Assembly: GCA_028276145.1 (NCBI GenBank)
Contig: JAPYWX010000003.1
Coordinates: 1 to 34,832, forward strand
Length of the DNA: 34,832 nucleotides
Source: Spirochaetota bacterium
Lineage (GTDB): Bacteria; Spirochaetota; Brevinematia; DTOW01
Direction of reading: 5' to 3'
Part shown: piece by piece, positions 1,433 through 33,964 of the stretch
How the letters are laid out: each line of letters starts with the position of its first letter
Position numbering within the stretch: the first letter of the stretch is position 1
Made by a program: the position numbers and the translations under genes
Notes under the pieces: model-generated
Told to the model about the DNA's origin: nothing
The model's database searches: none
The model's input: the letters and a program-made list of their open reading frames with translations, nothing else

Positions 1433-1528
1433 CTCATTTTTATCGTAGAGATTCATAGTATCTCTGCACTATTAAAAAGTGAAGACAGGCAATACAAAAT
1501 TAAGCAGTCTACAGGATTCAAAAATTGA

Positions 1529-1573
1529 GTGTTTTAAACACTGAGTGTTTTAAACACATAGTGTTTAAAACAC
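1529..1573. repeat. GTGTTTTAAACAC palindrome array x3, 16 bp period
   Basis: 1529-1541, 1545-1557, 1561-1573 with spacers TGA and ATA. Confidence 0.95.
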
Positions 1574-1662
1574 TGAGTATGTAAAAATTACACAGCTACG
1601 AGATAACATCTCTTTACCGTGAAGGAAAAGTTTTTTCAACAGAATTCAATAATAAAGCAAAA

Positions 1663-7527: not shown

Positions 7528-7596
7528 TCCCATTACAAATATAATAAATGTTTAAATAATCTCTATACAATTTAGTTTGATCTTGTTGAGAAATTC

Positions 7597-7641
7597 AACA
7601 GGCTTAGCCTGAACAGGCTTAGCCTGAACAGGCTTGGCCTG
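7597..7641. repeat. AACAGGCTTAGCCTG tandem x3, 15 bp period
   Basis: CAGGCTTAGCCTG at 7599 and 7614, CAGGCTTGGCCTG at 7629, separated by AA. Confidence 0.95.
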
Positions 7642-7680
7642 TGACAAGCTACTACATGTTCCTCAATTTAAAACAAGAAT

Positions 7681-7749
7681 GTGCTACTAAGCACAACGTG
7701 CTATGAAGCACTCCACCCTCTAATTGATGTAGAGAGGCAAAGCCTCTCT
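7681..7749. repeat. Two GTGCT palindromes (17 bp period) followed by AGAGAGGC hairpin
   Basis: GTGCTACTAAGCAC 7681-7694, GTGCTATGAAGCAC 7698-7711, AGAGAGGC-AAA-GCCTCTCT 7731-7749. Confidence 0.93.
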
Positions 7750-7960
7750 ATACTCTACAATGTTTAATAAGGAATTGCCGTTAGGACCCTACGAAGTACT
7801 TTCAAGTATTTATAAGAAGGTGCTATTAAGCACCATACTTACTTTTATTGCAAATATGCGTATCATCCTCTGATGTCTAGCATCTCCATGCTTAGAAGGT
7901 TTGCCAAAAAAATATCCCGGCAACACAGAATACAAGAAATTTAACAATTTAAAGAACCAA

Positions 7961-8026
7961 GTGTTTAAAACACTCGGTGTTTAAAACAAAACACTTTGTG
8001 TTTAAAACACTTTGTGTTTAAAACAA
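7961..8026. repeat. GTGTTTAAAACAC palindrome array x4 (two degenerate)
   Basis: Units begin at 7961, 7977, 7998, 8014; array ends 6 bp from the amidase stop codon. Confidence 0.9.
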
Positions 8027-12908: not shown

Positions 12909-13231
12909 ATTATAACAATTTTAACATTAACTAATCAAAAACTATGAAAATAAAATAAATACTACTTAAATTGTATAATTTTAGCTTTGAAGAAAACCCG
13001 AATTCCTCCCAAATTCACTAAGCTAAACAACAATTCAAACTTCTTACCTCTTCTTTTTAGTGCTACAACACTTATTCCTTCAAACACTTTAGACTACACG
13101 AATAAAAATGCACTATGAGCACAATGCACTTCAAAGCACAACACGCTACTAAGTACTAAATAATGACTCTTTCTCTACTTCTTAGAACGCCTGAAGTAAT
13201 ATTAAAAAGGCTATCAACTTTAAAACTCTAA

Positions 13232-13249
13232 GGGAGGCTATCGCCTCCC
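13232..13249. repeat. GGGAGGC-TATC-GCCTCCC hairpin
   Basis: Perfect 7 bp stem, 4 nt loop. Confidence 0.85.
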
Positions 13250-13294
13250 CTAACTCTATAAGTATCATCAAAAATCAAGTTTTACTAACAAAAA

Positions 13295-13355
13295 GTGTTA
13301 TAAACACAGTGTGTTATAAACACTTTGTGTTATAAACACTCTGTGTTATAAACAC
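13295..13355. repeat. GTGTTATAAACAC x4, exact 16 bp period
   Basis: Starts 13295, 13311, 13327, 13343; spacers AGT, TTT, TCT; ends 5 bp before the adjacent stop codon at 13361. Confidence 0.97.
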
Positions 13356-13360
13356 TCAAA

Positions 13361-15377: not shown

Positions 15378-15731
15378 CAAAAAGTATTATTTAGCACACT
15401 ATTTTAAGTAGTCCCATTTACTTCTTTAATCGTAGAAAGCTTTGACCTCTTCTCACTCTCCATCTCCAAAGCATGAAAAGAGTTTATTAACTTAACAGTT
15501 AAGTGCTACTAGCACGCTACTATTAGTAATCCCCATCACCCACCCTATTTAATTGTCAAGAGTTTTCACCTCTCAACACTCCTCTACCGAAACATGAAAA
15601 TAAAAGAAGTGCAATCTAGAACCCATCCACTCTGCTTTATTGCTGTAAACGAGTTTTCCAACACCTTTTACTTATCAAAAAGGCTATTAAGCAAATGAGC
15701 TTTAAGGTACTTAGAACACTAAATAAAAGAG

Positions 15732-21910: not shown

Positions 21911-22239
21911 GTGCTTCATAGCACTAGTGCTTCACAGCACTTTTTTATCAACCATTGAGAATTGCAGAGAGCCGGAAACCTCTTGACATCAAACATAACA
22001 AGATTCTTATTGTTCTTAATTACTTTGTTCCAATAGCATATTGTGCTTATAACAAATTTTTGACAAAAAACGGGTTAATCGGGAGGCTAAACATCTATAT
22101 TAGATGGGTTAAAGTGCTTCGTAGCACTTTGTGCTTAGTAGCACTTTCTTAATGTTTTGGAGAGTGAAGAGGGGCGAAGCTTCTTTTCAAATAATTAGGA
22201 CGTGCGGAGTGCTTATTAGTACCTAGTGCTTACTAGCAC
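21911..22239. repeat. Three GTGCTT..AGCAC doublets (16 or 17 bp period)
   Basis: 21911/21927, 22114/22131, 22209/22226. Confidence 0.9.
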
Positions 22240-22817: not shown

Positions 22818-23046
22818 AGTGTACCAGACTTGTTCCTAATAACACTTTTTACTAAACACTGGTGAGTGAAGAGAGGCTTTGTAACTCTAAAATAATTAGG
22901 ATGGGTAAGGGTGCTTATAACATCCTTAATTGAGTACTTAATAGCATTTTCTCAGTTATTCTAGAAAACGTGGAGAGGTGAAACCTCTTCATATTAAATT
23001 TGAATCTAAAAAAACACTCTTTTATATTTGCTTCAAGGAGGAGTGT

Positions 23047-24822: not shown

Positions 24823-24944
24823 TCCAATTAATCAAAATAATTTCAACAATACTTCCATCAAACTTACTTACGGTAAAGTCAGGCATATCCTTAGTGTGAC
24901 ACGGTCTAGAAACAGCTATCAATTTATTGTTTTGAAAAATTCAA

Positions 24945-24972
24945 CAGGCTAAGCCTGCCACAGGTAAACCTG
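24945..24972. repeat. CAGGCTAAGCCTG + CAGGTAAACCTG doublet
   Basis: 24945-24957 and 24961-24972, CCA spacer. Confidence 0.9.
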
Positions 24973-28943: not shown

Positions 28944-29166
28944 AATTTAACCTCCAAAGAGTATAGACTATTATAATCACATATTCAACAAGAATATGTC
29001 AAATTTTTAGATTGTGTTGGAAATAGGCTAGCACATTGCTATTAGATGTTTCACCTCTCTTTACCCTCAAACACCTTTCACTTACCAAAGAACACAAGTG
29101 CTATTAACACTCAAGAAGGTGTATTTAGCACTTTACTTTTAGTAGCCCCCAATCTATTTGATTGTT

Positions 29167-29290
29167 GAGAGGTTTCACCTCTCTTCATTCTTCAATGTGT
29201 AATAAGAATGTGTTACTAAGCACAACGTGCTATGAAGCACGACGTACTATGAAGAACAAAGTGCTATGAAGCACAAAGTGCTATAAGCAC
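29167..29290. repeat. GAGAGGT-TTC-ACCTCTC hairpin plus five palindromes in exact 17 bp register
   Basis: Hairpin 29167-29183; units start 29210, 29227, 29244, 29261, 29278; array ends 4 bp before the miaB stop. Confidence 0.96.
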
Positions 29291-29294
29291 ACAG

Positions 29295-30587: not shown

Positions 30588-30724
30588 ACCTTCACCAGAA
30601 ACATTATAAAAATACTATATAAATTGTAGAGATTTTTCTAATAATAAATCAAATTAGCAACAGGCTAGACCTATTACTTACAGGTTAAACCCAGCTTCTA
30701 TAAAAAAGAATTTCATATTCATCG

Positions 30725-30745
30725 CAGAGAGGCGTAGCCTCTCTG
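30725..30745. repeat. CAGAGAGGC-GTA-GCCTCTCTG hairpin
   Basis: Perfect 9 bp stem, 3 nt loop. Confidence 0.9.
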
Positions 30746-30773
30746 TACTCTTATAAAAATAATTTAATAATCC

Positions 30774-33846: not shown

Positions 33847-33964
33847 ATTAGTATTAAACACTAGAGAGTAAAGAGAGACGAAGTCTCTCTTCAAACAATT
33901 AGGGTGGAAGAGTGAGGCCACTAGAAGTAATGTTCTAATTCATAATCAAGTGCTAAAAGCACTT
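33847..33964. repeat. Dispersed core repeat (reverse orientation) with AGAGAGAC hairpin, plus AAGTGCT-AAA-AGCACTT palindrome
   Basis: AAGAGAGAC-GAA-GTCTCTCTT 33871-33891; AAGTGCTAAAAGCACTT 33948-33964, 8 bp from the ispD stop. Confidence 0.85.

Follow-up and report, generated by a model that had tools for sequence, protein, structure and literature searches.

The closest described relatives of the element reported here are small intergenic repeats of several kinds. REP/BIME repeats of the GTAG and CGTC families are short intergenic palindromes with alternative complementary stems, occur in clusters and mosaics and are unevenly distributed between relatives (PMC3733652). The CGTC families also lack a dedicated transposase (PMC3733652). 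The intrastrand triplex repeats BoxC, PIT and TM-ECO consist of a hairpin and a one-sided third homopurine strand and are found as many near-copies in intergenic DNA (PMC4666352). The GGGAATC repeats of Xanthomonas and Nostoc are intergenic, lineage-enriched and quadruplex-capable (PMC4692102), and MITEs are small, dispersed and non-coding.

All of these traits recur in the present element, which differs from each system in specific ways. In contrast to REP/BIME repeats, it carries neither a GTAG/CGTC tag nor a RAYT, has further modules in the form of a mirror purine prefix, G tracts and GTGC borders, and has a unit length of about 110-130 bp compared with 20-40 for REP. Under the scheme of Holder et al. 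(PMC4666352), the order prefix-purine arm-pyrimidine arm makes the G strand class I and the C strand class III, whereas BoxC, PIT and TM-ECO have the order Y-R-R (class II). Further, the element has many stem sequences instead of one consensus and is joined to G tracts. The BoxC/TM-ECO consensus 5'-CCCTCNCCC N3-6 GGGNGAGGG N3 GGGNGAGGG differs from it in both order and sequence. GGGAATC repeats are tandem heptamers, whereas the one-base-loop G tracts of the element are one module of a hairpin composite. Unlike a MITE, the element lacks the terminal inverted repeats (TIRs) of the insertion sequence (IS) resident in its genome. In the literature covered, which included few subscription papers, the separate ingredients were found and the combination of hairpin, mirror purine strand and G tracts was not. 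The composite of these three parts and their three-way co-variation is new.

Copies in the window and across genomes

The window is a stretch of 34,832 nucleotides from a Spirochaetota bacterium (contig JAPYWX010000003.1, positions 1 to 34,832). Its genes are ordinary (EF-Ts, ribonucleotide reductase, amylases, IspD and others), and an Rfam 15 scan returned three tRNAs and no other family at gathering score. A preliminary description had placed a dispersed repeat of ~60 bp at 29140-29205; the repeat is present and the sequence quoted for it occupies 29148-29208. The five further copies listed there were all confirmed, at 7714-7773 and 15539-15600 on the plus strand and at 22145-22204, 22846-22905 and 33848-33908 on the minus strand. 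Reading the flanks of many copies revealed that the orientation then called forward is the C-rich strand, and copies are oriented below by their G-rich strand. Three features had gone unmentioned: the conserved CCCACCC flank is the G tract of the opposite strand, a CTCTCC tail tracks the stem and GTGC palindromes border many copies.

Two covariance models were used: R1, built from the six window copies, and R2, a broader composite model trained mostly on copies outside the window together with two window copies (33857 and 7708). The copy at 29144-29208 (minus strand) is matched by R1 at 29148-29208 (+, E=5.3e-12) and, as a held-out copy, by R2 at 29144-29199 (-, E=1.5e-6). Its core hairpin, GAGAGG-TTTCA-CCTCTC at 29167-29183, shows compensatory changes between copies. 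The purine prefix, GAAGAA on the minus strand at 29188-29193, is the mirror partner of the purine arm and is degenerate in this copy, and the G tracts have decayed to a single run of five (C at 29146-29150). Tandem GTGCTNNNNAGCAC-type palindromes with a period of 16-17 bp adjoin it at 29207-29292.

The copy at 7708-7773 (minus strand, hairpin 7732-7748; R2 E=4.6e-10 as a training copy, also matched by R1) lies between a tRNA-Pro and an amidase gene and is touched by two GTGC palindromes at 7681-7711. At 15535-15600 (minus strand; R2 E=1.1e-7, held out; also R1) a copy adjoins the ribonucleotide reductase gene and retains partial G tracts, AGGGTGGGTGATGGGG on the minus strand. On the plus strand, the copy at 22145-22208 (R2 E=4.9e-8, held out as 22153; also R1) has GTGC palindromes on both sides (22114-22144 and 22226-22239). 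The copy at 22846-22909 (plus strand) has an imperfect stem; it is matched by R1 at E=1.2e-9 as a training copy and is recovered weakly by R2, for which it was held out as 22855 (E=0.03). R2 thus recovers the other three held-out copies at E<=1.5e-6. The best-preserved copy, at 33848-33912 (plus strand; R2 E=1.8e-14 as a training copy, R1 E=6.3e-12), has a prefix, AGAGAG, that is the exact mirror of the arm GAGAGA, and one full G tract remains. Generally, the six copies have kept the hairpin and mostly the mirror prefix, and their G tracts have decayed. Because most G tracts are lost in these copies, the one at 29144-29208 is a degraded member. R2 added two members absent from the preliminary description, both on the minus strand: one at 13210-13265 with stem class GGGAGGC..GCCTCCC (E=4.7e-5) and one at 30714-30759 of the CAGAGAGGC..GCCTCTCTG class (E=6.5e-5).

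The host genome is a metagenome-assembled genome (MAG) of 1.57 Mb in 202 contigs, 82.7% complete, in which the short contigs L136, L143, L175 and L183 consist entirely of N. Its GH57 protein has Brevinematales MAGs among its closest named relatives, and the closest genomes compared were four from another genus of the same family. The preliminary description had proposed a scan with a covariance model of the six copies and had made the recovery of further copies decisive; R1 found many in the host genome. At least 108 matches reach E<=0.001 among the best 150 of about 1200 candidates scored, and 119 reach E<=0.01 in 783 kb. With R2, at least 139 matches were found at E<=0.001 in the whole genome among the best 150 of 1721 candidates scored, and 203 at E<=0.01 in 772 kb, some of which are one hairpin read on both strands. 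These copy numbers are far above chance. The sample covers about half of the genome, and it should be noted that its densities are biased upward, since half of the sampled contigs were chosen for having matches. R1 gave zero matches in 17 other genomes of the class and in 197 other genomes of the phylum, and the best R2 match in 484 kb of relatives had E=0.68. Searches of viruses, phages and plasmids also returned no copy. The copies are genuine and, among the genomes examined, confined to one.

Composite anatomy and covariation

On the G strand, the element begins with a GTGC palindrome (GTGCTNNNNAGCAC), followed by a short AT stretch, a six-base purine prefix, a four-base linker, the purine arm, a loop of 3-5 bases, the pyrimidine arm, an AT spacer and GGG tracts with one-base loops. 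The tracts are followed by a stretch such as ACTACTTAAAGTA or run directly into another GTGC palindrome. A GTG palindrome lies close by on the 5' side in 73 and on the 3' side in 81 of 142 composite matches. The exact palindrome GTGCTNNNNAGCAC occurs 572 times in the host genome, the reversed-pattern control 0 times, and each relative has 0-2 copies. In the host it is found in tandem at a 16-17 bp period.

Other palindrome arrays occur in the window. Tandem GTGTTTAAAACAC / GTGTTATAAACAC arrays at window positions 1525-1586, 7948-8025 and 13296-13359 are a variant of the GTGC palindrome with changed arms. A second repeat system, consisting of tandem CAGGCNNNGCCTG palindromes with a 15-bp period beside TGTTGAAAAATTCAACA-type palindromes, is present at 1285-1350, 7576-7642 and 24922-24964 and often sits at the edge of an intergenic array. 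CAGGC palindromes number 34 in 783 kb, with 0 in open reading frames (ORFs).

The hairpin stem has 11 bp and exists in at least six sequence classes, with 10 of the 11 pairs changed on both sides. Stem changes are compensatory between copies. In R1 matches, 89% of stem cells are paired and double changes number 167, compared with 64 in shuffles. The covariation score is 0.359 against 0.179 in shuffled alignments and at most 0.109 in slid registers. Stem classes in alignment A4 differ widely (GAGAGG, GAGAGA, GAGATG, GGGAGG, GGGATR, GGAARG and others); the 97% pairing of A4 partly reflects its selection for good arms, of which alignment A3 is free. The classes share ancestry, so that copies are not independent. 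Stem mismatches read on the G strand comprise 65 G.T and 39 A.C, an excess that lends weak support to the G strand as the folding strand.

The purine prefix changes together with the purine arm, of which it is the mirror image, the signature expected of an intrastrand triplex. When reversed, it matches the arm at 4.77/6 in exactly one register, and all other registers tried, mirror or direct, stay at or below 3.28/6; the prefix played no part in choosing the hairpins scored. In a class-level permutation with one vote per stem class, 0 of 50,000 reached the observed mirror total. The mirror match is 3.63/4 in elements compared with 1.34/4 in other intergenic hairpins of the same genome, and the excess over permutation persists in 110 matches outside model training. 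Mutual information between prefix and arm in 147 composite matches peaks on the mirror diagonal (0.57, 0.12, 0.11, 0.28 and 0.18 at positions 2-6), and one off-diagonal cell reaches 0.31; the bases are predominantly A and G, most of the signal comes from position 2 and strong support is limited to a few triplet positions. An origin of the prefix by Watson-Crick slippage or direct duplication was rejected: the any-register direct match is weaker (3.85 compared with 4.50 for the mirror), as is the class-level match (49 compared with 58). Ordinary direct or inverted duplication does not yield mirrors; a mirror is what pairing of the prefix as a third, reverse-Hoogsteen purine strand would require. 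The class I/III triplex motif (mirror third strand, arms of at least 6 nt, loops of 1-6 nt) is present in a subset, the mirror being 6/6 in 29 and 5/6 in 54 of the 147 matches, with a linker of 4 nt and a loop of 3-5 nt. The prefix lies four bases off the stem foot; since this linker is itself paired when the stem is extended, triplex and full hairpin would compete.

The G-tract module follows the pattern GGGHGGGHGGG(HGGG), with three to five GGG tracts. Sites with at least three tracts and one-base loops number 51 in 783 kb, 0 of them in ORFs, compared with 0.05 expected for three-tract sites under a dinucleotide Markov model; none were found in 400 kb of the sister genus. Four-tract sites number 29 in the host genome and 0 in 17 relatives. 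Across 82 copies aligned on the first run, G makes up 91-100% of the first two G runs, where the anchor itself requires part of both. The one-base loops vary between T, C and A, and the third and fourth runs decay, four tracts being kept by a minority of copies only. The quadruplex pattern of four GGG tracts with short loops occurs in a subset of copies and in none of the six in the window. From this match we infer that quadruplexes may form. Maintenance of the element for a joint triplex-quadruplex DNA fold, in which three strands would have co-evolved through several stem classes, seems rather unlikely on present evidence.

Genomic context and mode of spread

Core matches are outside ORFs in 117 of 119 cases under a simple ORF call, and elements are present in co-oriented, divergent and convergent gaps. 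In the sister genus, 31 gene pairs are still adjacent; 0 of them have an element and all are tight operon joints. No element-bearing gap is held in common, hence there is no empty-site pair. Within the host genome, stretches of 90-277 bp are near-identical (85-99%) at different loci, and several of these homologies stop at a GTGC palindrome or inside G tracts, with different hairpin classes beside the same neighbour. Homology ends fall in palindromes at 0.44 compared with 0.35 background and in G tracts at 0.05 compared with 0.02, a modest enrichment overall. Breakage of contigs at elements was considered and set aside, 5 of 74 ends carrying one compared with 0.046 at random, no clear excess. 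An exact direct repeat of ~106 bp at contig ends (L171:4054-4305 and L123:1-89) is unrelated to the element.

Tentatively, and somewhat short of probable, we regard the element as a non-coding and non-autonomous intergenic repeat that is specific to one lineage, belongs to the REP/BIME kind, consists of modules able to adopt non-B DNA and has spread by template switching or slippage. We favour template switching at structure-prone modules as the mechanism, with a missing transposase as the main rival. The G strand, when single-stranded during replication or transcription, would fold into the hairpin, one arm of which may then take up the third purine strand to give a class I intrastrand triplex, with a parallel quadruplex next to it. 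Polymerases would stall at the folded structure, and if repair then proceeded by slippage or template switching from one of the ubiquitous palindromes or G tracts to another, it could copy and shuffle modules. These would spread and diversify in intergenic DNA, where insertions are tolerated, and the element would persist as largely selfish or neutral DNA. A link between triplex repeats and instability has precedent (PMC4666352).

Alternatively, a REP- or MITE-like miniature element could have been moved in trans by a lost, diverged or unassembled transposase that, like the enzymes of the IS200/IS605 group, reads the hairpin and purine prefix in single-stranded form. This would account for the explosive copy number in one genome with none in the sister genus, for both orientations and for near-identical dispersed copies, and the CGTC families offer a precedent for REP families without a dedicated transposase (PMC3733652). 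It nevertheless appears unlikely. The REP/BIME-type nature proposed in the preliminary description holds in part: in the general sense we accept it, as the element is short, palindromic, intergenic, clustered, mosaic and high-copy with compensatory stems, but assignment to REP proper is unsupported, RAYT and GTAG/CGTC tag being missing. Alignment A4 has no invariant GTAG or CGTC tag unpaired at the hairpin foot; the foot reads TGTA, TGAA, TGTT or TTAA and is paired within the stem. The suggested search for a RAYT/Y1 transposase found no Y1_Tnp (PF01797) in the 82.7%-complete genome, the same search being positive in 5 of 14 control genomes. No TnpB and no reverse transcriptase (RVT_1) were found there either. 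RAYT/Y1 mobilisation was rejected on the missing Y1_Tnp and TnpB, and retro-type copying on the missing RVT_1. None of the 675 ORFs belongs to a high-copy transposase-like gene family, and a transposase could reside in the missing 17% of the MAG. Further, the stem differs widely by class, unlike the recognition site of one enzyme.

Among the transposase families searched, the sole IS family found encodes a 313-aa DDE transposase (DDE_Tnp_1) between TIRs GAGRGTGTTCCAAAA (L132:484-1467, with the end of a second copy at L125:5036), and an apparent MITE of this IS, ~150 bp with the same TIRs, lies at L169:2413-2571. At L115:~11283, an IS-type end, GAGAGTGTTCCAA, joins a GTGC palindrome array directly, as if the array had replaced or invaded the IS interior. 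The TIRs are absent from the element, which leaves the proposed MITE-type reading unsupported, and the search for IS ends sharing its flanks returned only this IS, whose ends are unrelated. GAGRGTGTTCC occurs at 7 sites in 783 kb, 0 of them at element ends and one abutting a GTGC array. A derivation of the element as a MITE of the resident IS was accordingly rejected, and GAGAGTGTT in the TIR was judged to resemble the element prefix and linker by chance.

A role at the RNA level is less likely still. Here, a hairpin-then-quadruplex transcript in 3' or 5' untranslated regions would make mRNA more stable, end transcription or prevent read-through. In 58 co-oriented gaps, the G strand has the sense of both flanking genes 42 times and is antisense 16 times, a bias that may reflect such a role; the G.T excess in G-strand stems is expected if that strand folds, and hairpin plus G4 is the fold favoured by an RNA model that includes G4 energies. 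However, the strand bias also follows GC skew, and because skew tracks gene strand (r=0.81), transcription and replication are inseparable as its source. GTGC palindromes and hairpins are common in divergent gaps too, where there is no gene read-through, and distances to stop and start codons are not fixed. Triplexes of the purine motif are not formed by RNA (PMC4666352). The element also does not resemble an intrinsic terminator, as no T run lies 3' of the hairpin on either strand; an AT spacer and G tracts follow it on one strand and a CACTCTC-type tail on the other.

Host-protein binding sites (nucleoid organiser, partition or uptake signal) with GTGCTNNNNAGCAC as operator would fit the strongly conserved GTGCT/AGCAC arms (333 of 386 GTG-N8-CAC units) and their 16-17 bp phasing, but are very improbable, as they explain the flanking palindromes only and not the stem classes, and as the palindrome, unlike uptake signals, is nearly absent from genes (6 in ORFs compared with 333 intergenic) and from all relatives.

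Significance

Bacterial intrastrand triplexes have, in the available literature, so far been argued from abundance and oligonucleotide biophysics. The many diverged copies of the present element in one genome allow covariation to ask whether the third strand matters, and the sequence, by its single mirror register, suggests that it does. The three-way co-variation thus makes the triplex idea testable. Were the joint fold indeed maintained, evolution would provide evidence that an intrastrand triplex is active in a living genome and is coupled there, within a single mobile unit, to a G-quadruplex. The coupling of quadruplex and tandem palindromes, in a burst confined to one lineage and with no evident transposase, provides a test case for the multiplication of non-B DNA and for how such DNA shapes intergenic regions.
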